Source: Tahibacter aquaticus
Lineage (GTDB): Bacteria > Pseudomonadota > Gammaproteobacteria > Xanthomonadales > Rhodanobacteraceae
DNA length: 64,000 nt
Direction: 5' to 3'
Assembly (NCBI RefSeq): GCF_004363655.1
Contig: NZ_SNZH01000002.1
Span: 310,001 to 374,000, forward strand
Shown here: piece after piece, positions 3,001 through 21,660 of the stretch
Layout: each line of letters starts with the position of its first letter
Numbering within the stretch: position 1 is the first letter of the stretch
The notes under the pieces: generated by a model
Told to the model about the DNA's origin: nothing
The model's input: only the letters and a program-made list of their open reading frames with translations
Database searches by the model: none
Program-made: the position numbers and the translations under genes

Positions 3001-6000
3001 ACGTCGGCCGGCAATAGCACCTGGACCTACGAATACAACAAACGCCGCCTGCTGGAAAAAGAAACGCTGCAGTACGACGGCAAGACCTTCGTACTGGACT
3101 GGGCCTATGACAGCCTGGGTTCGGCGCAGTCGCTGACCTATCCCGATGGCAGCATGGTCGACTACGCACCCGATGCGTTCGGCCGCCCGACCCAGGTCGG
3201 CAGCTATGCCAGCGGCATCAGCTACTACCCGAACAATGCCACGGCGCAATTCACCTACGGCAACGGCGTACAGCACACGCTGACGCAGAACGCACGCCAG
3301 CTGCCGCTGCGCAGCAAGGACAGCATCGGCAGCACGGCCATCCTCGATTACGAATACGACTACGACAACAACGGCAATGTCGCGCAGATCGACGACTTCG
3401 CCCAGGGCGGACTGGAAAGCAAGACGCTGGCCTATGACGGGCTCAATCGCCTGATCGCCGCCACCTCGGGGCTGTGGGCCGGCACGGCCACGTTCGAGTA
3501 CGACGCGCTGGAGAACCTGCGCCGCATGCAGGTCAACAACCGCATCCACACCTACACCATCGATACGGCACGCAACCGCGTCAGCCAGCTGGTCTCCAAT
3601 CTCGGCCCCACGCTGAACCTCAGTTACAACAACCAGGGCAATCTGGTCGGCAAGGGCAGCCAGAGTTTCGTATTCGACCTGGCCAACCGCATGACCTCGG
3701 CCACCGGCCCGGGCGGCAGCGGTGGCGAAAGCTATGTCTACGACGGCCATGGCCGCCGCGTATCCATTCTTAAAAATGGTCAAAGCACCAAGAAATACAC
3801 GGTCTACAGCAAGGAAGGAAAACTGCTGCACGAACTGGATGCGACGGGTGCGCCGACCCATTACATCTATCTGGCCGGCAGCCTGCTGGCGCGCCTGCAG
3901 AACGGCGTGGTGACCAACGCACCGGTGCTGTCGGTCAATCCGCCGAACAAGACCAGCGGCGATTTCACCGTGAGCTGGACCAATGTGCTGAGCAACGGCA
4001 GCTACAAGCTGTCGGTACGCCGCGGCACCAGCGCGCCCCAGGTAACGACCCTGCCATGGACCACGCTCAACAAGCTGTATTCCAGCCCCGACGGCGGCAC
4101 CTACACCATCGGCCTGCAGGCTTGCCCTGCGGTCGGAGCGTGCAGCGACGCAAACCCGCTGAGCTATGGCGTGACACCGAAGAAAGTGGCCTCGGTCAGC
4201 GTGCCGCAGGTGCAGCAGTCGGGCCCCTACAGCATCAGCTGGCAGGCCTCCGTCGATGCGAGCTATCGCGTCGAACAGTCGGCCGACAACGGCGTGAACT
4301 ACTCACTAGTAACGGCCAGCACGGCGAACACGTCGGTCCAGTTGCCGGGCACGGTCGCGGGCACTTACGTCTACAAGGTCACCGCCTTCAACAGCTGGGG
4401 CGATCGCGGCGGCACGGTTTCCGGCCCGGTCACGGTGGTACCGCCGAACACCTGCGACACGGTCACGACGCTGGCCACGCCGGTCATTACGCCGATCACC
4501 CTGGATAGCCCGAACGGCTATACGGTGCGCTGGACCGAGCCGAATTGCGCAACGGCCTATACCGTGGAGGAGTCGACCAACGACGTGAACTGGACAGCGG
4601 CACCGGGCTATGCGGCGCCGATCAATCTGGCCGAGGCGGTGTTTACCGGCCGCGCCAATGGCACCTACTACTACCGCGTGCGCGCCAGCCGGCCGGGCAA
4701 CACACCGGTGCCGTTCAGCGCCTACAGCACGTCGAAGTCCATCGTGGTTTCTGTGTCAGTCGATCCGCCGATTCCGGCCAATGTGCGCCTGGCCAGCACC
4801 GGCGTCGTCACGGGGCCGATCATCCATCTCACCGGCAACACCAGGCGCGTCGATGTGCTGTGGGACGCCGTAGCCAACGCCACCAGCTATGTGGTCAAGC
4901 GTGTCACCGACCATACCCAGTGCGCTGGTGGCGACGGCGAGCAGACCGTAACCGGTTCGCCGCCGCTCGCCATCCTGGCGAACCAGGCCGTGCCGTACAT
5001 CTGTGGCGGCCATTCCCAGGCACCGACGGCGTACGAGTTCCAGGTCAAGGCCTGCATCGGCAGCAACTGCTCGCAGTGGTCGTCCATTGCGCGAGTGGAA
5101 GTCGATGCACCGGGTGGCGGTGGCGGCAATGGTCCGAACGCGATCGAAGCACTGCAGCCGGTCTACTACCACACGGATGCACTCGGCAGCCCAGCCGCCG
5201 AAACCGACGCCGTAGGCACCATCTCGACGATCAAGCGCTTGTACTACGAGCCCTACGGCGGGCCGCTGGACGGCATCTACAGCGACAAGCCCGGCTATAC
5301 CGGCCATGTCGCGGATTCGACCACGCAGCTGAACTACATGCAGCAGCGTTACTACGATCCGATGCTGGGGCGGTTTTTGAGTGTGGATCCGGTAGAAGTC
5401 AACAAGCAGACTGGCGCCAGCTTCAACAGATTTGCGTATGCGGGCAACAACCCCTACACGTTCACGGATCCTGACGGTCGCGAATACGGCGCTGCATATG
5501 CCACCATTTTCAAGGCTGACTCTGGAATTCCGCTCGCGACCGACGATGGAGGCAAAGCGATCGGGATAGTCGTCGATTTCATTCCGGTAGTTGGTGACGT
5601 GAAGGGCATTGTGGAAGCGATTGCAGATCCAACGCCAATCAATATCGCCGGTGCCGTGATCGGTCTATTTCCAGTAGGCGGAGACATTGCCAAAGCGGCG
5701 CTCAAACATGGGGACGAGGTTGCCGCGCTCGGCAAGGCAGCCCCCGATTTTGATACCGCTCGACGCACCGCATTCGAGAACGCAGGAATGACGGATGCAT
5801 CCAAAGTGGAGTTTTCCAAGATGGACGAAGCAACCGGTACTGTTGTGGAGTTCAAGGGTGAAGGTGGAGCAAAGGTTGGTTATGATGGACCCCACGCGAG
5901 TCCGGGCCCTCACCACGACACTCAGCACATCAGCTGGCAGTCAGCTGGAAAGCGAGGCGATGGCGGCGCAAAACGCGGCAACGAACCCTACTCGGGAGAG

Positions 6001-7781: not shown

Positions 7782-9671
<1,890 letters not shown>

Positions 9672-9909
9672 TGACGATAGTCCTGTGCAATGGAGAAGGT
9701 GCGTCGCAGCGGCGGGCCTGGACGAAAAGCCAGTGGCGCAAGCCACCCTCCCGAAGGCCGGAAGCCTCGCACGCCGCGGGGCCATCGGGCCGGCTATTGT
9801 ACTGGCCCAAGGTCTAGCGTCGATGACGGTTGTGCTACGGCCCAAAGCGCCTGGGGAATGGGTACAATCGCGCGCCCCGAACCGACCGCAACCTGCCGAG
9901 AACAGCGCC
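9672..9909. promoter_or_regulatory. Divergent speA/speE promoter region
   Basis: Noncoding gap between speA and speE. A TACAAT hexamer at 9863-9868 would make a good -10 box for speE with a leader of about 35 bases. I could not find a convincing -35 at 16-18 bases from it (a TTGTGC at 9830 is too far). No clear operator or riboswitch fold was seen. Confidence 0.35.
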
Positions 9910-10761
9910 ATGTCCGATTCCACCTGGTTCACCGAGCAGCACGAGCATTCCGGCTCGTCCATCGGTTTTCGCGTGAAACAGAAACTGCACTCGGAAAAGA
10001 CGCCGTTCCAGACCATCGAGATCTACGACACGACGGACTGGGGCAAGCTGATGGTCATCGATGGCTGCATGATGGTGAGCAGCCGCGACAACTTCCTGTA
10101 TCACGAGATGATGTCGCACCCGGCGCTGTTCACCCATGCGCGCGCCAAGCGTGTCGTCATCATCGGCGGCGGCGACTGCGGCACGCTGCGTGAAGTGCTG
10201 CGGCACGACGAAGTGGAAAAGGCCGTCCAGGTCGAGATCGACGAGCGCGTGACGCGCCTGGCCGAAAAATATTTCCCCGAGCTGTGCGAAGCCAACGACG
10301 ATCCGCGCGCTGAACTGCTGTTCATCGACGGCATCAAGTACATGGCCGAGTGCGAGCCGGAATCGCTGGATCTGATCATCGTCGATTCCACCGATCCGGT
10401 CGGTCCGGCCGAAGGCCTGTTCAATGCCGCGTTCTATACCAGCTGCTACAAGGCGCTGCGCCATGGCGGCATCCTGGTGCAGCAATCCGAGTCGCCGCTG
10501 GTGCATCTGGATCTGATCAAATCGATGCGCGTGGCGATGAAGAGCGCCGGCTTCCAGTCGGCCAAGACACTGAATTTCCCGCAGCCGTGCTATCCCACCG
10601 GCTGGTGGAGCTGCACCATGGTGCGCAAGGGTGCCGATCTGGCCGGCTTCCGAGAACGCGGCGCCGCGAGCAAGCAGTTCCCCACGCGCTACTACAACGT
10701 CGACATGCACCGCGCTGCGCTGGCCATGCCGGAGTTCGTGCGCGAGGCCCTGGGCGAGTAG
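9910..10761 (+). CDS. speE: Spermidine synthase (polyamine aminopropyltransferase)
   Basis: Transfers the aminopropyl group of decarboxylated S-adenosylmethionine to putrescine. 283 residues from the ATG at 9910, where the family N-terminus (WFTEQH) begins; the frame is open further upstream but without family sequence. Signature residues are IGGGDCGTLREVLRH (the Rossmann-type GGG), the QVEID loop, and the catalytic Asp loop IVDSTDPVGPAEGLF. The downstream part keeps CYPTGWWS and TRYYN. Length matches bacterial SpeE. It pairs functionally with the divergent speA; no adenosylmethionine decarboxylase gene is present in the window. Confidence 0.97.
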   Translation: MSDSTWFTEQHEHSGSSIGFRVKQKLHSEKTPFQTIEIYDTTDWGKLMVIDGCMMVSSRDNFLYHEMMSHPALFTHARAKRVVIIGGGDCGTLREVLRHDEVEKAVQVEIDERVTRLAEKYFPELCEANDDPRAELLFIDGIKYMAECEPESLDLIIVDSTDPVGPAEGLFNAAFYTSCYKALRHGGILVQQSESPLVHLDLIKSMRVAMKSAGFQSAKTLNFPQPCYPTGWWSCTMVRKGADLAGFRERGAASKQFPTRYYNVDMHRAALAMPEFVREALGE

Positions 10762-12075: not shown

Positions 12076-12855
12076 TTACGGACAGGTGGTGCCCTGCACC
12101 GTCGTCACGCGTTCCAGTGCCAGCGTGCCCGAGGCACTGAAGGCCGGGTCGGTCGAGGTCCATTGCACCTGGCCGGCGCTGCAGCTGGTGAAGGTGAAGG
12201 TCAGCGTGCCCCAGGGCGGGTTGGTGATCTGGGCCGGGTCGAAGTTCGGCGGGAAGCGGCCGCCGCGGCTCTTCACGGCCTGCATTTCGATGCGGTTGTT
12301 GGCGATGGTGCCGACGCCGAGTATCCAGACCTGGTTGCCGGCGTTGTCGAAGGTGAACCAGAACGCGGTGACGGTGGTGTCGTTGACCTTTTCCAGCTGG
12401 AAGCCATGGCCGCTCTGGGCCGGGTTGAACCAGTTGCCGCTGACGCCGGTACCGATGGAGAACGTCGGCGTGTCGTTCGGCTGCACGATGATCTTGCCGG
12501 ACATGCCCGCTCCGCCGGGACCGCCGTGGGCGGTGCAGTAGTAGCCGACCGTGCCGACCGTATCGAAGGTCAGGGTCTGGCTCCATTCGCCGGAAGCGGG
12601 CGCGCCGCCGCTGGTATAGCCTTCGCGATAGCAGTCGGTGGCACAGCGGAAGCTGCCGTCGTCGGCAGCAACATTGTGGAAACCGCCTGCATTGCGAAAT
12701 GTGACCGTATCGCCGGCCTTGATCGTCAGCGACGACGGCGAGTAGCCATTGCCCGCTGCGCCACCGACGGTGACCACGTGATTGGCGGCCGAGGCCAGCC
12801 AGGTGCTTAGCAGCAGGCAAGTGCCTGCCAGGTATTGAACGATTCGCCGGTTCAT
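12076..12855 (-). CDS. Secreted two-domain cupredoxin with C-terminal 'NPAQSGHGF' domain
   Basis: 259 residues from the ATG at 12855, chosen because it has a GGAG ribosome site and starts a signal peptide ending ASAA. Residues about 25-127 form a plastocyanin/azurin-like domain with a complete type 1 copper set: His60 (GGFHNV), Cys107, His110 and Met118 (YYCTAH...GMSG). Residues about 137-259 are a domain (NWFNPAQSGHGFQLE, then WFTFDNAGNQVWILG, ending in a Cys near the C-terminus) that I know from many secreted Xanthomonadales proteins; its function is unknown. It is a paralogue of the cupredoxin at 20218 in the electron-transfer operon, so it may be an accessory electron carrier, though it is on the opposite strand with its own terminator. 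Confidence 0.85.
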   Translation of the reverse strand: MNRRIVQYLAGTCLLLSTWLASAANHVVTVGGAAGNGYSPSSLTIKAGDTVTFRNAGGFHNVAADDGSFRCATDCYREGYTSGGAPASGEWSQTLTFDTVGTVGYYCTAHGGPGGAGMSGKIIVQPNDTPTFSIGTGVSGNWFNPAQSGHGFQLEKVNDTTVTAFWFTFDNAGNQVWILGVGTIANNRIEMQAVKSRGGRFPPNFDPAQITNPPWGTLTFTFTSCSAGQVQWTSTDPAFSASGTLALERVTTVQGTTCP

Positions 12856-13026
12856 CGTGGAAATCTCCGTAGTTGCGGCGCGCGCAGCGGCGCGGCCTTC
12901 AGTCGCGATCAGGTCATGGTCAACCGGCGCGCAATGGCGCTGGTTGCAGGACGTGAGTACCGGCAACGGGAGAAACGGTTGCATGAATGCGGCGGCGGAC
13001 AGGGCAGAGCCGCTGGCGTCGGCGCC

Positions 13027-13734
13027 TCAGAAGTTCCAGACCAGCGTGGTGACCCAGCGGTTGCGTTCGCTCGATCCGGTGTTGTAACGCAGCGCTCCCC
13101 GCGTGGCCAGCAGCAGCGAAGAGTAAATGTGTACATCGCCGATGCCGTAGCTCAGGCCGGCACTGCCGTAGGAATAGTTCAGATCGGCCTTGTGCACGCG
13201 GGCAAGGCCCAGGCCGAAATGGGCGGCCAGACGGCCACGAATCGGCTGGTTGTAGCTGAGTTCTGCGGCGGCCGCGAAGCCGGTGGCGGCGCCGCGGTAG
13301 GTAAAGATGCCCGGGGTATCGGGCGACAGAGCCAGCGAAAGGCGCCAGCGGCCGCGCCAGCCGACCGCGGCAGTGAGTTCGTTGTAGTTGAGTTCGTCGC
13401 GCCAGATATTCGACGGTGACTCGTAATGCATCAGCCCCAGCTTGGCCGACCAGTCCTCGTCCAGCTGCCAGCGCCGGTCCAGATATACGGTGTACTGCAC
13501 GCCGGCGTCCTGGAAGCGCGGCTTCTCCCGCGATGCGCCGATACCGGCGGTCCAGCGCCCATCGACGCTGTAGTGCAGGTCGGCCAGCCAGGCGGGCTCG
13601 CCGGAACTCAACGATACGCCGCGGTATACATTGTCGCTGCCATAGCCCAGTGCTCCCCCCCAGCCCTGGGCAAGGACCAGTGAAGGTACGGCGGCGAACA
13701 ACAGTGCAATCAACCGTACCCCAGGACCTGGCAT
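13027..13734 (-). CDS. TorF-family putative outer-membrane beta-barrel protein
   Basis: 235 residues with a signal peptide (cut after about LVLAQ). The rest alternates short amphipathic strands and turns and ends in an aromatic residue (LVWNF), typical of outer-membrane barrels. The pattern GSDNVYRGVSLSSGEPAW near the N-terminus matches the TIGR02001/TorF family of proteobacterial outer-membrane proteins, whose role is poorly known. It lies upstream of, and divergent from, the sigma factor that heads the cytochrome operon, and on the same strand as the two-domain cupredoxin. An envelope role linked to that operon is possible but unproven. Confidence 0.75.
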   Translation of the reverse strand: MPGPGVRLIALLFAAVPSLVLAQGWGGALGYGSDNVYRGVSLSSGEPAWLADLHYSVDGRWTAGIGASREKPRFQDAGVQYTVYLDRRWQLDEDWSAKLGLMHYESPSNIWRDELNYNELTAAVGWRGRWRLSLALSPDTPGIFTYRGAATGFAAAAELSYNQPIRGRLAAHFGLGLARVHKADLNYSYGSAGLSYGIGDVHIYSSLLLATRGALRYNTGSSERNRWVTTLVWNF

Positions 13735-13899
13735 AGCGCAGAATCTGCCTGCATTGAGCGAATTCGAAGAAGGAAGTTATACCGATTTCGCCGCGGCGAT
13801 TGCGCTGACAATCACGCCGGGGAGGAAATACGGACGGGGCGCAACCATTTCCCGCTGGGCGGGCACTCACAGCATCGAACCCCTGCGCAAGCCTAGCCG

Positions 13900-14523
13900 A
13901 TGAAGCCGACGCCTGACGACCAGCCAGTACGCAGCGAGGTCCGTCCCGACAACGAGACAGACCTGCGCGACCGTGCCTGGCTCGGTGCGGTAGCGCGGGG
14001 CGACCGGGCGGCTTTCGAGCGTCTGTACCTGGCGCACCAGCCGGCGCTGGCGCGTTTCATCGCGCGCCATTCCTCGCGCCGCGACCTGATCGACGAAATC
14101 ATCAACGATGCATTCTGGGTGGTATGGCGCAAGGCGGCGGAATTCCGTGGCGACTCCAAAGTGGCCACCTGGATCATCGGCATCGCTTACCGCTGCATGC
14201 TCAAGGCGCTGCGCAGCAACAACCTGCCGGCCGAAGCCGAGAGCGAAACCGTGCTGGACGAAGCACTGGCCGATTTCAGCAGCGAAGCCGAGCAGCGCGA
14301 ACTGCGCGACTGGGTAAGGCGTGGCCTGTCCCTGCTGGCGCCGGAGCAGCGCATGACCATGGAGCTGGCCTATTTCCTCGGCCAGTCCTGCGACGAAATT
14401 GCCGCCATCATGAATTGCGCCAGCGGCACGGTGAAGGCACGCATGTTCCATGCGCGCCTGCGCCTGCGCAATTCGCTGCCGGCCCTCGGCGGCGACGCGG
14501 CCCATCACTTCGCGCGGAAATGA
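13900..14523 (+). CDS. ECF-type RNA polymerase sigma factor
   Basis: 207 residues. Region 2 (about residues 37-95) has the core-binding DEIINDAFWVVWRKA and the -10 recognition segment ATWIIGIAYR. Region 4 (about 148-197) has the LLAPEQR entry and the helix-turn-helix SCDEIAAIMNCASGTVKARMFHAR. There is no region 3, so it is an ECF sigma. The next gene, 4 bases on, is a zinc-finger anti-sigma factor, and the run continues without break into the decahaem cytochrome operon. The simplest reading is that this sigma drives its own operon in response to an envelope signal. Confidence 0.93.
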   Translation: MKPTPDDQPVRSEVRPDNETDLRDRAWLGAVARGDRAAFERLYLAHQPALARFIARHSSRRDLIDEIINDAFWVVWRKAAEFRGDSKVATWIIGIAYRCMLKALRSNNLPAEAESETVLDEALADFSSEAEQRELRDWVRRGLSLLAPEQRMTMELAYFLGQSCDEIAAIMNCASGTVKARMFHARLRLRNSLPALGGDAAHHFARK

Positions 14524-14527
14524 CAGC

Positions 14528-15181
14528 ATGAATCACGACACCACTCCGCACAGCCAGATCTGGGAACTGATTCCCTGGGTTGCCAACGGCACTGCCACGC
14601 CGGCACAGCAGCAGCGTGTGCAGGAACACCTGCGCGACTGCAGCGACTGCCGCGACGAATACGCCCAGCAATGCCGTTTCCTGGCCGGCATGCAGCTCGA
14701 CGATGACGCGCCGCCGGCAGCCGAACCAGCGCTGCGCCGGCTGATGCAGCGCATCGATGCGGCCGAACCCGCCATCCTGCCGGCGCCGTCTGCGCCGGCG
14801 CGTTTGGCCGCACGTGCGGTGCCCTGGCTGGCTGCCGCCGTGGTGGTACAGGCCATCGGCCTGGCCCTGCTCGGCAGCGCGCTGGTGCAGCGCCCGCCGG
14901 CAACCCGCGCCGACTACGTCACCCTGAGCCAGGCGCCGGCCAGCGAGCGCGCCGCCGTACGCCTGGTTGCCGCGCCGGAAATGGATCTGGCCAGCCTGCG
15001 CCGGGTGCTTGGCGAAACCGGCCTGCATATCGTGCAGAGCAATGCCGACAACAGCATCTTCGGCCTGGCACCGGCACGCACTGCGCCGGCCGTGGATGTC
15101 GCCGAAGCGATTGCGCGCCTGCGCCGCGAACCCGGCGTGCTGCTGGCCGAGCCGGCCGCCGGCACGGCGGCACTGCACTGA
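14528..15181 (+). CDS. Membrane zinc-finger anti-sigma factor with subtilase-propeptide-like periplasmic domain
   Basis: 217 residues from the ATG at 14528 (4 bases after the sigma gene). The cytoplasmic part has the zf-HC2 pattern His34-x3-Cys38-x2-Cys41, the standard sigma-binding ZAS fold. One membrane helix spans about residues 96-119. The periplasmic remainder (about 122-217) ends in AIARLRREPGVLLAEP, which resembles LARLNRDRRVRLAQP in the propeptide of the next gene, a subtilase: both look like the end of an I9-type inhibitor fold. By family knowledge it would hold the sigma at the membrane until released. I infer that the periplasmic domain is an inhibitor or bait for the neighbouring protease. 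Confidence 0.85.
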   Translation: MNHDTTPHSQIWELIPWVANGTATPAQQQRVQEHLRDCSDCRDEYAQQCRFLAGMQLDDDAPPAAEPALRRLMQRIDAAEPAILPAPSAPARLAARAVPWLAAAVVVQAIGLALLGSALVQRPPATRADYVTLSQAPASERAAVRLVAAPEMDLASLRRVLGETGLHIVQSNADNSIFGLAPARTAPAVDVAEAIARLRREPGVLLAEPAAGTAALH

Positions 15182-15189
15182 GGCCGGCC

Positions 15190-16503
15190 ATGACCATCAC
15201 TCTGCGCTCGCGCTATGCCCTGGTCCGCTGGCTGGGCCTGTGGCTGCTGCTGTTGCCGCTGCTGGCAGGCGCCCAGGGTGCAGCACCGGACTGGTCGGCT
15301 GGCTATGACGCTACGCGCATGATCGTGATCGCGGTGGCGAACAAGCCCGAACCTTCGCCTGCGGCCGGCGCCACGCCGCGCGGCTACGATGCCCTGCCCA
15401 GCTATGCCGGCAGCGAGCGGGCGAACGGCCTGGCGGCCAAGATCGCTGCGGAATACGGCCTGCAGGAAATCTCGGCCTGGACCATAGAGCCGCTGCGCCT
15501 GCGCTGCCTGGTCTATCTGTTGCCGCCGTCGGCCGATCGCGACGAGACCCTGGCGCGGCTCAACCGCGACCGCCGCGTACGCCTGGCCCAGCCGCTGCAG
15601 GAGTTCGACACCCTGAGCCTGCCCACCGCGGCGCCGCCGGGCGCGCAGTACAACGACCCCTATCTTTCGCTGCAGCACAATTTTTCCACCATTGCCGCGG
15701 CGGACGCACAGCGCTGGACGCGCGGCGAGGGCGTCGAGATCGCCCTGATCGACACCGGCCTGGATGCCGATCACCCGGACCTGGCCGGGCGCATCGCCGG
15801 CCAGCGCAATTTCGTCGGCAACGTAGCCGTATCGGCGGCGGAACGCCACGGCACCGAAGTCGCGGGTGTCATCTCCGCCGTGGCGGACAACAAATTGGGC
15901 ATTGTAGGCATTGCACCGAATGCAAAATTGTTCGCCTATCGCGCCTGCTGGTCGCTGCCGGGACAGGCGGCCGGCGCACGCTGCAACTCCTATACGCTGG
16001 CCCTGGCACTGGGTGCGGCGATTGCGTCGAACGCGCGCATCATCAACCTGAGCCTGGGCGGACCGGCCGATCCGCTGCTGCAGCAACTGCTGCAGCATGC
16101 GGTGCGCCACGGCGCCATCGTCGTCGGCGCGGTGCCGCCGGACCGGCGCATGGACGGCTTTCCGGTCGGCGTGCCCGGCGTGATCGCCGTGGCGTCGGCG
16201 GAAGATCCCAGGCCCGACGCACCAGCCCTGGCTGCGCCGGGGCGCGACATTCTCACGCTGGAACCGGGCGGCAGCTTCGACTATGCCTCGGGCAGCTCGC
16301 TTGCGACGGCGCAGGTCACCGGCGCCATCGCCCTGCTGCTGGCGCTCAAGCCTGGCCAGGATGCTGCGGGGCTGTACGCCTTGTTGAGCAGTACCCAGAA
16401 AAGCGCCGGCGCGCCGATCGACATCTGCGCCGCTGTTGCGCGCATAGATCCGGATGGCGGGTTTTGCGCCCCGGCCACGCTCGACCGCAAGCCGGACCAC
16501 TGA
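15190..16503 (+). CDS. Secreted S8-family serine peptidase (subtilase)
   Basis: 437 residues with an N-terminal signal segment (about 1-28), a propeptide-like region (about 40-140) and a peptidase domain (about 165-405). The catalytic triad is visible: Asp188 (ALIDTGLD), His220 (RHGTEVAGV) and Ser370 (SGSSLATAQ). The oxyanion-hole Asn usual in AAGN is not seen; the equivalent stretch reads VVGAVPPD, so activity may be altered. It sits 8 bases after the anti-sigma gene and 4 bases before the decahaem cytochrome gene. Likely roles, by inference, are regulated cleavage of the anti-sigma factor or maturation of exported operon products. Confidence 0.9.
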   Translation: MTITLRSRYALVRWLGLWLLLLPLLAGAQGAAPDWSAGYDATRMIVIAVANKPEPSPAAGATPRGYDALPSYAGSERANGLAAKIAAEYGLQEISAWTIEPLRLRCLVYLLPPSADRDETLARLNRDRRVRLAQPLQEFDTLSLPTAAPPGAQYNDPYLSLQHNFSTIAAADAQRWTRGEGVEIALIDTGLDADHPDLAGRIAGQRNFVGNVAVSAAERHGTEVAGVISAVADNKLGIVGIAPNAKLFAYRACWSLPGQAAGARCNSYTLALALGAAIASNARIINLSLGGPADPLLQQLLQHAVRHGAIVVGAVPPDRRMDGFPVGVPGVIAVASAEDPRPDAPALAAPGRDILTLEPGGSFDYASGSSLATAQVTGAIALLLALKPGQDAAGLYALLSSTQKSAGAPIDICAAVARIDPDGGFCAPATLDRKPDH

Positions 16504-16507
16504 AGCC

Positions 16508-17575
16508 ATGACCGTTCCCCTGCACACGCCCACCCCGATCGGCACGCGTGTCGTAGCCCTGTGCCTGCTGATGCTGCTGAGCCAGTGGGCCTGGGCGCAA
16601 CAGGACCGCGCCGCCTTCGCACAGAGCCTGCCGTCGTCGGATTTTTCCGGCAGCGACGTGGCCGCGAGCACACGCCGTTTCCTGGCGGCGCCGGGCTTTG
16701 CCCGTGCCCGCGTGGCGGAAAATCCGCTGGCGCCGGGAGCTACGCCGGTCGGCGAGAAAACCTGTATCGCCTGCCACCAGCTGGAGAGCGATCACTTCAC
16801 CCACACCCTGCACGCACTGGGCCTGCATGCGGCGGCCAAGGCCGATCCGGCAATTCCGGTGTGCGAAACCTGCCACGGACCGGGTTCGGCGCATGCGCAG
16901 GAGCCGGCCGGGAAAGGCCTGATCATCGGCTATACGCGCAAGTCGGCCACGCCGATTGCGCTGCAGACGCGCACCTGCCTGACCTGCCACGAAGGCGGCG
17001 CCCGCGATCACTGGCTGGGTTCCATCCACCAGCGCAACGATCTTTCCTGCAGCGACTGCCACAACCCGATGGCGAAGTTTTCCGCCGACGGCCTGCTCGC
17101 GCGCCGCTCGATCAACGATACCTGTGCACAATGTCACAATGATGTGAAGCAGCAGTTCGGCCGCCGTTCGCACATGCCGCTGCAGGAAGGGCAGATGAGC
17201 TGTGTCGACTGCCACAATCCACACGGCTCGCTGACGGCGCCGCTGCTCAAGACCGCAACCGTCAACGAAACCTGCTACCAGTGCCACGCGGAGAAACGCG
17301 GGCCTTTCCTGTTCGAGCATGCGCCGGTGCGCGACAGCTGCCTCAACTGCCACACGCCGCACGGTTCGAATCAGCACGCGCTGCTGGTCGCGCCGCTGCC
17401 CTTGCTGTGCCAGCAGTGCCACAGCCAGCTCGGCCATCCGAACGATCTGCACACACCGGCCTCGCTGGCCAATGGCGCGCACCCGGACGAACGCCTGATG
17501 GGCCGCGCCTGCCTTACCTGTCATGCGCAGATCCACGGGTCCAACGCGCCTTCGGGCCCGAAATTCCATGAATAG
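16508..17575 (+). CDS. DmsE/MtrA/PioA-type periplasmic decahaem c-type cytochrome
   Basis: 355 residues from the ATG at 16508, which opens a clear signal peptide ending AWAQ. Ten CxxCH haem sites are present (first Cys at residues 86, 119, 147, 171, 196, 222, 246, 268, 291 and 325), the exact number for the DmsE/MtrA family. These proteins sit inside an MtrB/PioB barrel and carry electrons across the outer membrane. The porin gene follows 15 bases later. No outer-surface MtrC-type cytochrome is encoded nearby, which resembles the iron-oxidising PioAB and MtoAB systems more than the metal-reducing Mtr system. Direction of electron flow is inference. Confidence 0.95.
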   Translation: MTVPLHTPTPIGTRVVALCLLMLLSQWAWAQQDRAAFAQSLPSSDFSGSDVAASTRRFLAAPGFARARVAENPLAPGATPVGEKTCIACHQLESDHFTHTLHALGLHAAAKADPAIPVCETCHGPGSAHAQEPAGKGLIIGYTRKSATPIALQTRTCLTCHEGGARDHWLGSIHQRNDLSCSDCHNPMAKFSADGLLARRSINDTCAQCHNDVKQQFGRRSHMPLQEGQMSCVDCHNPHGSLTAPLLKTATVNETCYQCHAEKRGPFLFEHAPVRDSCLNCHTPHGSNQHALLVAPLPLLCQQCHSQLGHPNDLHTPASLANGAHPDERLMGRACLTCHAQIHGSNAPSGPKFHE

Positions 17576-17590
17576 CCAGGGAGCCAGGCC

Positions 17591-20140
17591 ATGCCGACAT
17601 TGCCGCTAGCACCGCTGACCCTGGCCCTGCTGCTGGCCCTGCCCATGGCGGTGCGCGCCGACAGTGGCGTCGGCGTGGACAGCGTGCGCGCCAACAAGCT
17701 CGACCCCAGTGCGGGCGTTGCCGGCGCGCCGGCCGATGCGCGCGGCACCAGCTGGCTGCGGCCGGGCCAAAGCCGTTCACCCAGCGGCAACCTGTACGAA
17801 TGCCCGTTGCTGCCGCCGTCGCTGCAGCAGGCTGGCGAATGGGAATACGACGGCCATGTGCAGGTCGGCTATCTGTCCGCCTTCGGCGACGACGACAACG
17901 CCTTGTGGAACCGCTACGTCGCCTGGGACAGCGGCCTGGTACTGGGGCTGCTGGAAATCGCCCTGCGCCGCCCGGCCGATGGCAGCTATGCCGACGTGCG
18001 GGCCAGCCGCATCAGCAGCGACGACGCCTTCTTCGATGCTGCCTTCGGCCGCGCCGGCAGCTACAAGGTGCAGGCCTTCCTGCGCGAGCTGCCCAACGTG
18101 GTCAGCAGCAATACGCGCTCGATCTGGAACGGCGTCGGCAGCAATGAACTGACCCTGCTGCCGGGGCTGACACCGGGTGGCAGCAGCAGCGCAGACGTGG
18201 CCGCCGTCGCCTCGGGTCTGCCGAACCGCCGCCTCAGCGTAGTTCGCAGCAAGACCGGGCTGGGCGTCGATGCCTACCTCGACAGCCGCTGGAGCGTATA
18301 CGGCCATGTCAGCGAGGAACAGCGCCGCGGTGCGCGGCCGTTCGGTGGCGCCTTTTTCTACAATTTCCTCTTTCCGGGCAATGCCGGCGCGCTGGAAACG
18401 CTCAAGCCCGTCAACGACAGCACCATCAACCTCGACGCCGGCCTGCGCTTCGCCGGTGCGCGCTGGCGCATGGATTTCGCCTACACCGGCTCGTTCTATC
18501 GCGACAGCGACCGCAGCTTCCGCTTCGAAAGCCCGTTCGCCCTGACGCCGACGCGGCCTGGGGCGCGCTCTGCGCCGATCTACCAGGGCCAGTTCGCGCT
18601 GGAGCCCGACAACGACTACCACAACCTGCGCGGCAGCCTGACCCGGCGCCTGCCTTGGAACGGCGAGCTGTCGCTCACCGCCTCGGCCGGCCGCATGAGC
18701 CAGGACGACGAGCTGATCGCGCCGATCGACTGCCAGGGCACTTTCGGCGTGGATACCGCGGGTACCGGCGTGTCGGGGCCGAACAATCCATTCCTGTACA
18801 ACTGCGCAGACTGGAATACGCCGGCCGCCTTGTCGCGCCGCAGCGCCGACCTGCGCATCGATACCGCGCTGTTCGATGGCCGCTTCAGCGTACAGCCCAG
18901 CAGTGCCTGGCTGCTGCGCGGCGGACTGAAGTTCGAGCGCGAGGACTATCGCAATACCTATCTCGCTTACAACCCGCTGACCGGCGATTACGGCTATATC
19001 GCCGAAAACGGCGCGATGGCAAGCATCCTGCCTGGCGTGGTCGGTACCTGGAACCCGCTGACCTCGCCGTCGGCCATCACGCGCGTGCGCAGCCTGCCGC
19101 TGGACGAACAGACCGCGACGGCCAATGCCGGTGCCGACTGGCGCCTGGCCGCAAGGACTACGCTGGGCCTCACTGTGCAGCGCGAGCAGCAGGAACAGAG
19201 CAATCGCGAGCGGCGCCGTGTCGACCGCGACAGCGTCAGGCTCAGTTTCGTCGACCGCAGCCTGGACTGGCTGACCGTGCGTGCCAACTACAGCTGGATA
19301 GAGCAGGGCGGCAGCCGCTATGAATCCAATCCCTACGAATTTCTGTATTCCTCCAGTTTGCCGGGCTTCGTGCCGCCTGCCGGCGGCGTGCCTGCGTTCA
19401 CCGTGGATGCGTTGCGCAAGTACGACCTGAGCGACCGGCGCGAGCACAAGTTTGATCTGAAGACCACGCTGGCCCTCGGCGCGCAGACCAGCCTCAGCGC
19501 CGGCCTGCGCGGCGACTGGAACGACTATGGCGCGGAGATCGGCCGCCAGGCCTACGACCGCAACGGCATCGACCTGCAATGGGAATGGCAGCCGTCGGCC
19601 GCTACGCGCGGCAGCATCTACTACGGTTTCGAACGCGCGCGCCTGCGCATCGCGAACGTGGCCGACGTGGCGTTCGGCCCGGACGGTTCGCTGGGCGGCC
19701 CCGACTATCCCACCCAGGCGCGCTGGTGGGCGTACGACAAGCAGCGCAGCCGCAGCGCCGGCGCCAGCCTCGACCACGACTTCGGCCCACTGCGCCTGGA
19801 CGCGAACTGGAACCTCACCGATACGCGCGGCCTGACCAGCTACCGCTTCAATGCACCCGATGCGCTGGCCTATTTCGCCGACGGCCTGGATGGCGCGCGC
19901 GAGGGCGCCTTCCCGCTCATGCGCTATCGCGTCGACAGCCTTACCGTGGGACTGAGTTTTCCGCTGTCGTCGCGTTTTTCGCTGCGCGTTTTCGACAATT
20001 TCGAGCGCGGCCGCATCCAGGACTGGCACTACCTCGGGCTGGAGCAGGCGCGCGTGATCGATCATCGCGTCTACAGCGACGGTGGCCCGCAAAGCTATAC
20101 CAGCAACCTGATCGGCCTGCTGCTGGACATCAGGCTGTAA
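17591..20140 (+). CDS. MtrB/PioB-family decahaem-associated outer-membrane porin
   Basis: 849 residues with a signal peptide ending VRADSG, followed by a very large barrel of alternating strands and turns; the C-terminal strand ends LLLDIRL. The family makes a wide outer-membrane beta-barrel that sheaths the decahaem cytochrome encoded just upstream, forming an electron conduit to the cell surface. Motifs such as GVDAYLDSRWSVYGH and the repeated barrel strands fit the MtrB/PioB family. The N-terminal CxxC known from Shewanella MtrB is not seen; only a single Cys (YECPLL) lies near the N-terminus. A GC-rich hairpin and a 77-base gap separate it from the soluble carriers downstream. Confidence 0.92.
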   Translation: MPTLPLAPLTLALLLALPMAVRADSGVGVDSVRANKLDPSAGVAGAPADARGTSWLRPGQSRSPSGNLYECPLLPPSLQQAGEWEYDGHVQVGYLSAFGDDDNALWNRYVAWDSGLVLGLLEIALRRPADGSYADVRASRISSDDAFFDAAFGRAGSYKVQAFLRELPNVVSSNTRSIWNGVGSNELTLLPGLTPGGSSSADVAAVASGLPNRRLSVVRSKTGLGVDAYLDSRWSVYGHVSEEQRRGARPFGGAFFYNFLFPGNAGALETLKPVNDSTINLDAGLRFAGARWRMDFAYTGSFYRDSDRSFRFESPFALTPTRPGARSAPIYQGQFALEPDNDYHNLRGSLTRRLPWNGELSLTASAGRMSQDDELIAPIDCQGTFGVDTAGTGVSGPNNPFLYNCADWNTPAALSRRSADLRIDTALFDGRFSVQPSSAWLLRGGLKFEREDYRNTYLAYNPLTGDYGYIAENGAMASILPGVVGTWNPLTSPSAITRVRSLPLDEQTATANAGADWRLAARTTLGLTVQREQQEQSNRERRRVDRDSVRLSFVDRSLDWLTVRANYSWIEQGGSRYESNPYEFLYSSSLPGFVPPAGGVPAFTVDALRKYDLSDRREHKFDLKTTLALGAQTSLSAGLRGDWNDYGAEIGRQAYDRNGIDLQWEWQPSAATRGSIYYGFERARLRIANVADVAFGPDGSLGGPDYPTQARWWAYDKQRSRSAGASLDHDFGPLRLDANWNLTDTRGLTSYRFNAPDALAYFADGLDGAREGAFPLMRYRVDSLTVGLSFPLSSRFSLRVFDNFERGRIQDWHYLGLEQARVIDHRVYSDGGPQSYTSNLIGLLLDIRL

Positions 20141-20159
20141 GGCAGTACAGGGGACATCC

Positions 20160-20181
20160 GGCGGGCTGCCGAAAGCCCGCC
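20160..20181 (+). other. Intercistronic hairpin between porin and carrier genes
   Basis: Perfect 8-bp GC-rich stem (20160-20167 with 20174-20181), loop GCCGAA, with no T-run after it. It is followed by an AT-rich leader and an AGGAG ribosome site before the cupredoxin start. It may set different transcript levels for the porin and the soluble carriers through processing or partial termination. Confidence 0.5.
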
Positions 20182-20217
20182 GTAACACGTTGTAAATAAG
20201 TAAACAAGGAGACTGAC

Positions 20218-20619
20218 ATGCGCATCCCCAACTCTGTGTGCCTCGTTTTGCTGGCGGCGCTGCCGTTCGCGGCGGCTGCGGCCGATCATGAAGTGCTGGT
20301 CGGCCAGGGCGGCAATACCTTCCAGCCGAATTTTCTCGAAATTCGCGCTGGCGACACGGTGACGTTCCGCCAGGTCGCCGGATTCCACAATGTGGCGACC
20401 CTGGCCGGTGCAGTGACGGCATTCCGCTGCGGGCCGAACGGCTGCGACGGGGTGGGCAGCGGCAACGGTGAACCCGGCGGCGGCGTGTGGTCGCAGACCG
20501 TGGCGTTTCCGACCATGGGCACCATCGACTACCTCTGCGATGTGCACGGCCAGGTGATGAGCGGCAGCATCGTCGTCAATCCGGTGCCGGTGACGCTGCA
20601 GAAGTTCGAGATCGACTGA
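20218..20619 (+). CDS. Periplasmic cupredoxin (plastocyanin-like blue copper protein)
   Basis: 133 residues with a signal peptide ending AAAA-D. The mature protein is a single plastocyanin-like domain with all four type 1 copper ligands: His57 (AGFHNVA), Cys107, His110 and Met114 (YLCDVHGQVMSG). It starts after a good AAGGAG site, 77 bases after the porin gene. In the operon it is a plausible periplasmic carrier between the outer-membrane conduit and inner-membrane or soluble acceptors, comparable in role to rusticyanin in acidophilic iron oxidisers; that comparison is functional inference, not sequence identity. Confidence 0.9.
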   Translation: MRIPNSVCLVLLAALPFAAAAADHEVLVGQGGNTFQPNFLEIRAGDTVTFRQVAGFHNVATLAGAVTAFRCGPNGCDGVGSGNGEPGGGVWSQTVAFPTMGTIDYLCDVHGQVMSGSIVVNPVPVTLQKFEID

Positions 20620-20650
20620 AACCTGCCAGCGCCTGCGCCGGAGTCTTGCG

Positions 20651-21304
20651 ATGAAGTGGACAATTGCACTGGCCAGCCTGTTGTTCGCCGCGCAAGCCGG
20701 CGCGCAGATGGTCGACTTGCGCGCGGCCGATGCCGTCGGCGGCGATGCGGCGGCGGGGGCGGCCAAGGTCGCGGTCTGCGTTGCCTGCCACGGTCCTGGC
20801 GGCAATGCCGTGGTGCCGGCGTTCCCGGCTCTGGCGGCGCAGCATGCAGGCTATCTCTACCAGAGCTTGGCCGGCTTCCAGCGCCGGGCCGATCCGGCCT
20901 CGCCGATGACGGCGCAGGTGAAAGACCTGAGCGACACCGATCTGCGCAACATCGCCGCCTATTTCGCCGCCCAGCCGCGCAGCGCGGCGGCGACGGCGGT
21001 TGCCGGCGAGGCCGGGGCACGGCTGTTCCGCCAGGGCGATGCCCGGCGCGGCATTCCGCCCTGCCAGGGTTGCCACGGCGTTGCCGGGCAGGGCCATCCC
21101 TTGCGCGGCAGCGCCCCGCGCTACGACTACTATCCGGCGCTGGCGCAGCAGCAGTCGGCCTATCTGGTGGCGCGACTGGCCCAGTACCGCGACGGCAAGC
21201 TGGCCGATTCCAGCAACGCGCTGATCATGCGCGGCGTCGCCCACAACCTCGACGACGCGGCAATCCGCAGCCTGGCCGACTGGCTGGCTGCAATGCCGCG
21301 CTGA
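20651..21304 (+). CDS. Dihaem cytochrome c4-like protein
   Basis: 217 residues with a signal peptide ending AGAQ. Two class I cytochrome domains are visible: haem sites CVACH (43-47) and CQGCH (138-142), with probable axial methionines Met86 (SPMTAQV) and Met193 (ALIMRGV). This arrangement matches cytochrome c4, a periplasmic shuttle that usually delivers electrons to cytochrome oxidase. It lies 31 bases after the cupredoxin and 29 before the HiPIP gene, so it is part of the same transcript. In this context it likely links the outer-membrane conduit to the respiratory chain. Confidence 0.92.
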   Translation: MKWTIALASLLFAAQAGAQMVDLRAADAVGGDAAAGAAKVAVCVACHGPGGNAVVPAFPALAAQHAGYLYQSLAGFQRRADPASPMTAQVKDLSDTDLRNIAAYFAAQPRSAAATAVAGEAGARLFRQGDARRGIPPCQGCHGVAGQGHPLRGSAPRYDYYPALAQQQSAYLVARLAQYRDGKLADSSNALIMRGVAHNLDDAAIRSLADWLAAMPR

Positions 21305-21333
21305 ACCCGCCGCCCATCCCACGGAGACTACCG

Positions 21334-21660
21334 ATGCGTACGACTGGCAATGCTCCGCCGACTTTTCCCGGCCTGTCGCGCCGGCATTTCCTGCAGCTGG
21401 CCGCCGGCAGCGGGGTTGCGCTGCTACTGGCGCAGCGCGCCGCTGCCGAGCTGCCGCCGTTGACGGAAACCGATCCTACCGCACAGGCCCTGGGCTACCG
21501 GGCGGACGCGGCGCAGGTCGACGCAGCCAAGTTTCCGCAGCGCAAGGACGGACAGCATTGTGGTAATTGCAATTTCTATCAGGCCGGCGCCTGCCAGCTG
21601 TTTCCGGGCAAGCGTGTCAGCGACAAGGGCTGGTGCTCGGCGTATGCCGCGAAACCCTAG
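21334..21660 (+). CDS. High-potential iron-sulfur protein (HiPIP, PioC-like), Tat-exported
   Basis: 108 residues. A twin-arginine signal (SRRHFLQLAAG, Arg16-Arg17) marks export of a folded cofactor protein. The C-terminal part has the four cluster cysteines in HiPIP spacing: Cys76 and Cys79 (HCGNC), Cys87 (GACQLFPG) and Cys101 (GWCSAY), binding one 4Fe-4S cluster. HiPIPs are periplasmic one-electron carriers; PioC in the Rhodopseudomonas pioABC operon is one. Its place as the last gene of a decahaem-porin operon is the strongest hint that this locus resembles Pio-type iron oxidation. An inverted repeat and a REP-like element follow. Confidence 0.95.
   Translation: MRTTGNAPPTFPGLSRRHFLQLAAGSGVALLLAQRAAAELPPLTETDPTAQALGYRADAAQVDAAKFPQRKDGQHCGNCNFYQAGACQLFPGKRVSDKGWCSAYAAKP

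Follow-up and report, generated by a model that had tools for sequence, protein, structure and literature searches.

Outer-membrane electron conduits of the MtrAB, MtoAB and PioAB types consist of a decahaem c-type cytochrome and a barrel protein encoded by adjacent genes, and in Rhodopseudomonas palustris the PioABC operon joins this pair to a high-potential iron-sulfur protein (HiPIP). To our knowledge, the control of when bacteria build such conduits is poorly known. A survey of MtoAB, PioAB and other conduits never uses the word "sigma" in its main text (PMC5566968), and a sigma-70 factor and an anti-sigma antagonist are reported as up-regulated in Rhodovulum electron uptake (PMC9230146). 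A literature search by title and abstract opening, with most subscription journals outside its scope, showed among the papers listed none that joins an extracytoplasmic function (ECF) sigma factor or a subtilase to genes for Mto, Pio, Mtr or Cyc2, and little on conduits of the Lysobacterales. Here we describe an eight-gene operon in a 64,000-nucleotide stretch of the Tahibacter aquaticus genome (contig NZ_SNZH01000002.1, positions 310,001 to 374,000; hereafter the window) that, on the reading we think probable, would specify a self-controlled outer-membrane electron conduit under a propeptide-type anti-sigma switch.

As in the MtrAB, MtoAB and PioAB systems, the genes for the decahaem cytochrome and the barrel are adjacent in the window, and as in PioABC they share one operon with a HiPIP gene. 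The absence of an extracellular cytochrome is a further trait common to the window operon and to MtoAB and PioAB as surveyed (PMC5566968). The window differs from all three conduit types in adding co-operonic genes for an ECF sigma factor, an anti-sigma factor, an S8 protease, a cupredoxin and a dihaem cytochrome c, and from PioABC in its own sigma gene, in a HiPIP closer to ordinary HiPIPs than to PioC, and in a host genome where no RuBisCO large subunit was found. On the regulatory side, ECF54 sigma factors are described as having subtilase and CHAT neighbours, no anti-sigma factor and, possibly, control by proteolysis (PMC8999054). The window module likewise places a subtilase in a conserved ECF sigma neighbourhood; it differs from ECF54 in a membrane-bound zf-HC2 anti-sigma factor with a prodomain-like periplasmic domain. 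Membrane anti-sigma factors of the RseA/RseP type are subject to regulated proteolysis. The window's anti-sigma factor resembles them in its single helix followed by a periplasmic domain and in its presumed proteolytic release, and differs in having a dedicated, co-encoded subtilase with a prodomain resembling the sensor domain of the anti-sigma factor itself.

The operon and its recurrence in relatives

The eight genes of the operon are as follows.

13900-14523, + strand: ECF sigma factor (SIG), 207 aa (Pfam and NCBIfam profiles, nine-member alignment)
14528-15181, + strand: zf-HC2 anti-sigma factor (ASF), 217 aa (profiles, alignment, hhalign, structure model)
15190-16503, + strand: S8 (subtilisin-type) protease with its own N-terminal prodomain (profiles, alignment, model)
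16508-17575, + strand: decahaem c-type cytochrome of the MtrA/DmsE family, ten CxxCH motifs (profiles, structure-chain match)
17591-20140, + strand: MtrB/PioB-type outer-membrane barrel, 849 aa (profiles, structure-chain match)
20218-20619, + strand: cupredoxin, 133 aa (profile)
20651-21304, + strand: dihaem c4-like cytochrome, 217 aa (profiles, two CxxCH motifs)
21334-21660, + strand: HiPIP with Tat signal, 108 aa (profile)

All eight reading frames, spanning 13900-21660, are intact, start with ATG and contain no internal stops. They are separated by 4, 8, 4, 15, 77, 31 and 29 bases; genes, strand, coordinates and gaps agree exactly with the first-pass annotation, and the identities it gave to the eight products are borne out by profile matches, CxxCH counts and the Tat signal. 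SIG scores above cut-off with PF04542 and PF08281 and reaches 73.3 bits with TIGR02937 (cut-off 42.9); its profile architecture, with Sigma70 regions 2 and 4 only, is that of an ECF sigma factor. ASF matches PF13490 (32.3 bits, cut-off 22.2) and the protease matches Peptidase_S8 (98.5 bits, cut-off 21.8). The view of the conduit as an MtrA/MtrB-type pair is supported by the scores of the decahaem cytochrome with TIGR03508 (DmsE family; 255.9 bits, cut-off 192.2) and of the barrel with PF11854 (MtrB_PioB; 303.6 bits, cut-off 23), as well as by matches to chains A (E 3.5e-61) and B (E 9.3e-21), respectively, of structure 6r2q, which we take to be an Mtr complex and whose chain A is labelled otherwise in the database listing. 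With TIGR03509 the barrel reaches 202.4 bits, below the curated cut-off of that family (240.05). The cupredoxin matches PF00127 (27.6 bits, cut-off 21.2) and shows His, Cys, His and Met ligands by eye, and the HiPIP, which carries a TAT signal, matches its family at 75.8 bits (cut-off 22). The conduit is thus a decahaem/MtrB-type pair, complemented by cupredoxin, dihaem cytochrome c and HiPIP; its host is Tahibacter-like.

A search for the same gene order in related genomes, as proposed in the first-pass annotation, recovered the exact eight-gene order in four relatives (L037, L038, L039 and L041), and the arrangement is therefore more than a chance one; the lack of co-occurrence that would have spoken against the operon did not materialize, and sigma module and conduit are found together. 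The nearest named relatives are Tahibacter species (T. harae, T. soli and T. caeni), with 79-84% identity in the decahaem cytochrome. A fifth locus, L175, carries sigma, anti-sigma, S8, decahaem, porin and dihaem cytochrome genes together with two cupredoxin-like genes, no HiPIP being detected, so that the sigma module immediately precedes the conduit in all five Tahibacter-like loci with enough contig; three more (L035, L036 and L277) are truncated where their contigs stop. In Dokdonella, loci L042, L045 and L051 comprise the sigma/anti-sigma/S8 triplet, the conduit, a dihaem cytochrome c and a terminal cupredoxin, again with no HiPIP detected. Among the 80 loci retrieved by the decahaem cytochrome, not all of which are from Lysobacterales and some of which are short, the whole triplet is present in eight. 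In 17 of these loci the gene caller overlooked the decahaem gene, and its neighbour lists were therefore used for finding families, the sigma-module counts being taken from profile searches instead. In triplet-less decahaem loci these lists gave gene clusters present in 19, 19 and 12 loci; a single member of each identifies them as CcmF, cupredoxin and TetR-regulator genes, respectively. Many Lysobacterales (e.g. L058 and L076-L079) have a decahaem-porin-dihaem core beside CcmB, CcmC-like, CcmE, CcmF, TetR regulator and cupredoxin genes and no sigma module.

The sigma module, its predicted promoter and two kinds of conduit

To follow the sigma module itself, we searched genomes with the ASF profile, which matches 116 of 398 genomes of the order and 18 of 369 in a sample of the class; among the 18 are the genome that holds the window and another from the same genus. 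The resulting set of 128 ASF loci, with loci present in two genome collections counted once, is made up of the window, eight loci retrieved via the decahaem cytochrome and 119 from further genomes; it leaves out L205, which was retrieved via the porin and has no ASF, and two weak, partial ASF places (G070:C1:816954 and G091:C2:670889). SIG, ASF and S8 occur together in 121 of the 128. A Cyc2-like operon adjoins the module in 68 loci and a decahaem conduit in 19 (the porin is seen in 18 of these, the contig of L082 ending before most of it); no locus has both, and 41 have neither nearby. The spacing between S8 and decahaem genes is about 1 kb in L180 and L082. The usual neighbour of the module is a TorF-type gene, which lies no further than 9 kb from ASF in 116 of the 128 loci. 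Outside the order, a strong S8 adjoins SIG and ASF in five of eight short loci and a weak one in another. Sigma factor, anti-sigma factor and S8 protease are a module wider than this operon, and we rejected the idea that it is peculiar to it. The first-pass annotation knew of no described system with its own sigma factor and protease built into the operon: the module does stand directly before the conduit in the Tahibacter-like loci, and elsewhere it lies beside a Cyc2-like operon or no conduit at all.

Cyc2 is a cytochrome fused to a porin. Cyc2-like loci usually run in the order cytochrome b561, Cyc2-like protein, cytochrome c, TorF-type porin, SIG, ASF, S8. The Cyc2-like protein was recognized by its sequence and by the published Cyc2 motif (AXPXFAR[Q/K][T/Y], CXXCH and PXL; PMC8406198), requiring all three elements and a length of at least 365 aa. 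In a relaxed form that admits F or Y, this motif is present in 58 of the 68 putative Cyc2 relatives, with 406-417 aa between the motif and the end; the strict F form is present in only 26. Of the ten relaxed-motif misses, five have a longer spacer and a motif recognizable by eye, and five are unassigned, one of the latter being a 204-aa frame. One member was scanned against Pfam, without any match. In a search run without a positive control, the sequence of one member had no match in the window's genome. Rhodanobacteraceae are listed among the sources of Cyc2 homologues (PMC10654088). Five genomes with a Cyc2-like locus (L214, L225, L240, L259 and L260) also match the porin elsewhere, by eye; both conduit types can coexist at genome level.

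Word-pair counting upstream of the operons yielded one strong signal, GCAACCTTTC-N12-GGCACTCA, and a promoter matrix was built from 40 sites. At a threshold of 12 bits or more, the matrix finds 266 sites in 2.52 Mb (both strands), compared to seven in a reversed-sequence control whose best site reaches 20.0 bits. The sites in the window and the two divergent genes near them are as follows.

13840-13870, + strand: predicted ECF promoter of the operon, CAACC-N16-GCACTCA, 31.9 bits, ending 29 nt before the sigma ATG
12953-12983, - strand: second predicted ECF promoter, 24.8 bits, 97 nt before the likely start of the divergent cupredoxin gene
12076-12855, - strand: divergent cupredoxin-domain protein (profile; signal-peptide-like start by eye)
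13027-13734, - strand: TorF/Gcw_chp-type putative porin, divergent from the sigma gene (TIGR02001, 46.0 bits, slightly below the cut-off of 47.15)

The operon's site is one of the 40 training sites and has one mismatch to the pattern; the second lies outside the training set and matches with two. The likely true start of the divergent cupredoxin gene is the ATG at 12855, which comes after the predicted promoter and encodes a signal-peptide-like N-terminus by eye, and not the longest-frame start at 12984. One predicted sigma promoter precedes all eight genes, as operon-wide control would need. Independent promoters within the operon had been named beforehand as a finding that would speak against a single unit; no second ECF motif site lies inside it, and only the two sites above reach 9 bits between positions 5001 and 30000 of the window, sigma-70 promoters not having been scanned. 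The same scan found no site of 9 bits or more in the 77-base gap upstream of the cupredoxin gene, and the idea of an additional ECF promoter there was rejected.

The motif accompanies the module across loci. It is found at most 200 nt before SIG in 66 of the 68 Cyc2-like loci, none of these being training sites, and before SIG in 17 of the 19 decahaem loci. It also precedes the conduits themselves, standing before the b561/Cyc2-like genes in 63 of the 68 loci (a set that includes many training sites) and before the decahaem gene in all four loci where that gene leads the SIG-strand operon (L199, L200, L204 and L257; not training sites). A second copy directed away from the conduit is present in 55 of the 68 Cyc2-like loci and can be seen at 5074-5104 in L254 and, in the decahaem locus L199, at 3376-3406; the divergent copies face genes of FdtA/WxcM-like, hexapeptide-transferase and GNAT-like families, which suggests that conduit and surface sugar may be co-controlled.

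Pairwise comparison of loci reveals where the two kinds of conduit take each other's place. L199 and L254 run collinear at 82% identity through both promoters as far as the first conduit gene, and collinearity resumes inside the TorF gene and continues through SIG, ASF and S8 (77% identity). Between these shared flanks, L199 carries decahaem, porin and dihaem genes, and L254 carries b561, Cyc2-like and cytochrome c genes. The same swap appears between L200 and either L254 or L242, where the left alignment stops shortly before the forward promoter, yet both partners have the promoter. Judged by these alignments, one conduit replaces the other between collinear flanks, with the promoter in common. 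Protein alignments comprised 121 ASF, 119 S8, 120 SIG and 102 TorF sequences, leaving out rows below 85 bits, without a gene or with stops, and a tree of the 118 rows with SIG, ASF and S8 (LG+G4, SH-aLRT only) requires at least four changes of conduit state, a count that gives no direction. L199, L200 and L257 fall inside a starred clade, whose other rows are Cyc2-like or conduit-less loci.

These results bear on the possibility that the sigma module regulates envelope stress in general, with the conduit genes as mere adjoining passengers. The 41 loci without either conduit, the TorF-type porin as a commoner neighbour than both conduits, and the divergent promoters towards sugar-modification-like genes, paired with the conduit promoter in those 55 Cyc2-like loci, are what such a regulator would lead one to expect. 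Against it, two unrelated kinds of conduit share one place behind a common promoter, a site stands at the start of the conduit itself in 63 of 68 and four of four loci, and the motif is carried by cupredoxin genes in eight cases. We regard this alternative as improbable, and a regulatory link between module and conduit as very probable.

The anti-sigma periplasmic domain and the proposed switch

The zf-HC2 domain of ASF is cytoplasmic, with H34, C38 and C41 invariant in the nine-member alignment. In the AlphaFold2 model, the helices of the zinc-finger region are followed by a long helix (residues 91-120), taken as transmembrane, and by a periplasmic domain (144-209) with the order beta-alpha-beta-beta-alpha-beta; residues 141-210 have a pLDDT of 85-95 in blocks of ten. 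The modelled prodomain of the partner protease (S8 residues 44-133) has the identical order of strands and helices, and profile alignment of the two with hhalign gives a probability of 87.2% (E 3.9e-6, 23% identity over 56 columns), compared to 0.1-0.9% for four control pairs. Among the 50 Foldseek rows shown for the ASF model, subtilase propeptides have the highest target-normalized TM-scores (0.62-0.66, 2.7-3.5 A), with 2z57_B at 0.66, 9fid_D at 0.63 and 1scj_B at 0.62. By profile alignment, the periplasmic domain of ASF is related to the prodomain of its partner protease, a likeness that is absent from the first-pass annotation and is the most striking part of the operon.

This relationship, together with the constancy of the protease beside SIG and ASF in conduit-less and Cyc2-like loci, argues against S8 serving merely to mature or degrade conduit proteins, in a quality control of cytochrome or barrel linked to the sigma factor by co-expression only. 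Protease and conduit are predicted to be co-transcribed in the window, as that explanation would have it, and we consider it very unlikely.

The S8 protease has a D188/H220/S370 triad that is kept in all 117 readable rows of the alignment (two further rows are gapped), and its cysteines C106 (118/118 ungapped rows), C253 (117/118) and C265 (118/118) are nearly invariant. Its model best matches unprocessed pro-subtilisin E over 409 columns spanning prodomain and catalytic domain. The oxyanion Asn, which in 7xr8 aligns to a Pro of the window protein, is absent from all 118 aligned S8 sequences (Pro in 102, one row gapped), and the enzyme may be slow or inactive. This feature leads to a different account of the module, in which S8 is a dead or single-turnover pseudo-protease acting as a periplasmic receptor, held by its own prodomain or by that of the anti-sigma factor, with partner exchange as the signal and a DegS/RseP-type protease cutting ASF. 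The prodomain relative on ASF fits this account as well, and the three cysteines could make a redox-sensitive link. A fully kept Asp-His-Ser triad would be unusual in a dead enzyme, and subtilases with an altered oxyanion residue, such as PC2, can stay active; we hold the pseudo-protease to be possible, if unlikely. In genome G000, which has 31 stretches matching the S8 family, an [AS]AGN string occurs in some frame at 26 of 30 S8 loci, partly by chance, and the operon's S8 locus is without it. In L038 the S8 frame (8649-10367) overruns its usual end by about 400 bases, across the start of the decahaem gene.

From the anatomy of the operon, its conservation, the shared motif, the prodomain relationship and the exchange of conduits, we infer a self-controlled conduit in which motif recognition by SIG, docking, cleavage, the signal and electron direction are the proposed steps. 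The decahaem cytochrome inside the MtrB-type barrel would move electrons across the outer membrane, and the cupredoxin, dihaem cytochrome c and HiPIP would connect the conduit on the periplasmic side, with an oxidase as the most likely inward destination. The co-encoded SIG would govern expression and be held by the membrane-bound ASF, whose periplasmic domain would dock on S8 in the manner of a propeptide. Subtilase propeptides inhibit, and are cut by, their own protease, and for this reason we propose ASF as both gate and ligand of S8; the docking itself we judge likely. An envelope or redox signal would alter the ASF-S8 complex so that ASF is cut or released, and the freed SIG would transcribe the whole operon and the second cupredoxin gene from GCAACCTTTC-N12-GGCACTCA promoters. 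The same switch is predicted to control the Cyc2-like operon in other Lysobacterales, and the conduit would therefore be an exchangeable part.

Several observations weigh against this reading. L051 and L246 have no site before SIG; none of the four divergent conduits (L201, L202, L203 and L246) has a site of at least 12 bits before the decahaem gene, L202 having one of 11.7; and in a remote ASF clade of 27 low-scoring loci a site precedes SIG in only one. A pattern search of the window's own genome allowing two mismatches gave three matches, the two window sites and C4:194690, and a backwards control also gave two, so C4:194690 is kept as a possible chance match; the gene that follows it at about 250 nt is regulator-like, with a winged helix and TPR recognized by eye. 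Among 33 genomes matching both porin and ASF, the two lie within about 5 kb in 14, elsewhere in the genome in 18 and are split by contig ends in one (by eye). No PDB structure matches the ASF model in Foldseek at E <= 0.001, which may be expected as the fold is small and common, and the domains that lead the list by E-value, of RRM, EF1B and ACT type, share its fold class; the prodomain family PF22148 scores 13.7 bits with ASF (E 0.085), below its cut-off of 21. The absent oxyanion Asn, the mean pLDDT of 62 for the S8 model, the quick construction and long-branch warnings of the SIG+ASF+S8 tree, and the fact that the entire account is drawn from sequence count on the same side.

The operon combines two known kinds of system, ECF/anti-sigma signalling and an MtrAB-type conduit, and its signalling principle may prove new. 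We see evenly balanced prospects for a new class of transmembrane signalling in which a propeptide-relative sensor on the anti-sigma factor and an oxyanion-modified subtilase would form a dedicated and transferable switch for such conduits, with MtrAB- and Cyc2-type cassettes exchanged behind one shared promoter. If the proposal is true, a single small switch is the mark of MtrAB-type and Cyc2-like conduits alike, a DNA motif becomes available for finding further regulon members, hosts such as Tahibacter and Dokdonella become usable for function tests, and ECF signalling gains a sensor principle, the propeptide relative on an anti-sigma factor. Whether Cyc2-like proteins from outside the known iron oxidizers do the job of MtrAB would become open to test as well.

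Electron direction and host

The first-pass annotation had compared the operon to the Pio set and proposed electron uptake or iron oxidation. The likeness to Pio stands in so far as decahaem cytochrome, porin and HiPIP share one operon, and is weak in that the HiPIP matches PioC poorly (chain 6xyv, E 0.015, vs 3.4e-15 for an ordinary HiPIP) and that a family search found no RuBisCO large subunit in the genome. Iron oxidation in its autotrophic form is unsupported because of these two results, and a Pio-type autotrophic iron oxidation was rejected. No member of the MtrC/OmcA family (TIGR03507) was found genome-wide, in agreement with the earlier claim that an MtrC-like surface cytochrome is lacking; this negative is weak because no control genome passed the cut-off. 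The NapC/CymA family was likewise not found in the genome by family search, and MtrCAB-type reduction was rejected on these two results.

Electron uptake by the conduit is plausible, and we lean slightly towards a net uptake, its direction being read from the carrier types. What fits best is a RuBisCO-less bacterium that would pass electrons from reduced metals or other donors via cupredoxin, cytochrome c4 and HiPIP to an oxidase. The conduit might instead export electrons, in respiration onto minerals or humics or in electron disposal: MtrA/MtrB homologues operate in both directions, and no RuBisCO large subunit was found in the host, two points in favour of export. HiPIP, cupredoxin and c4 are usually high-potential carriers, and neither a NapC/CymA-family quinol partner nor an MtrC/OmcA-family surface cytochrome was found in the genome, so that export appears rather unlikely.

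Two further observations concern conduit genes at other loci. Tandem decahaem-porin-dihaem sets, two in each case, are present in L056 and L064. In L307 (2222-4599), from outside the order, the SIG-ASF-S8 triplet lies divergent to two frames that each have one CXXCH, the first of 376 aa with the motif near its N-terminus and the second of 429 aa; the 376-aa frame is possibly another cytochrome-barrel, and the locus perhaps has a third type of conduit.

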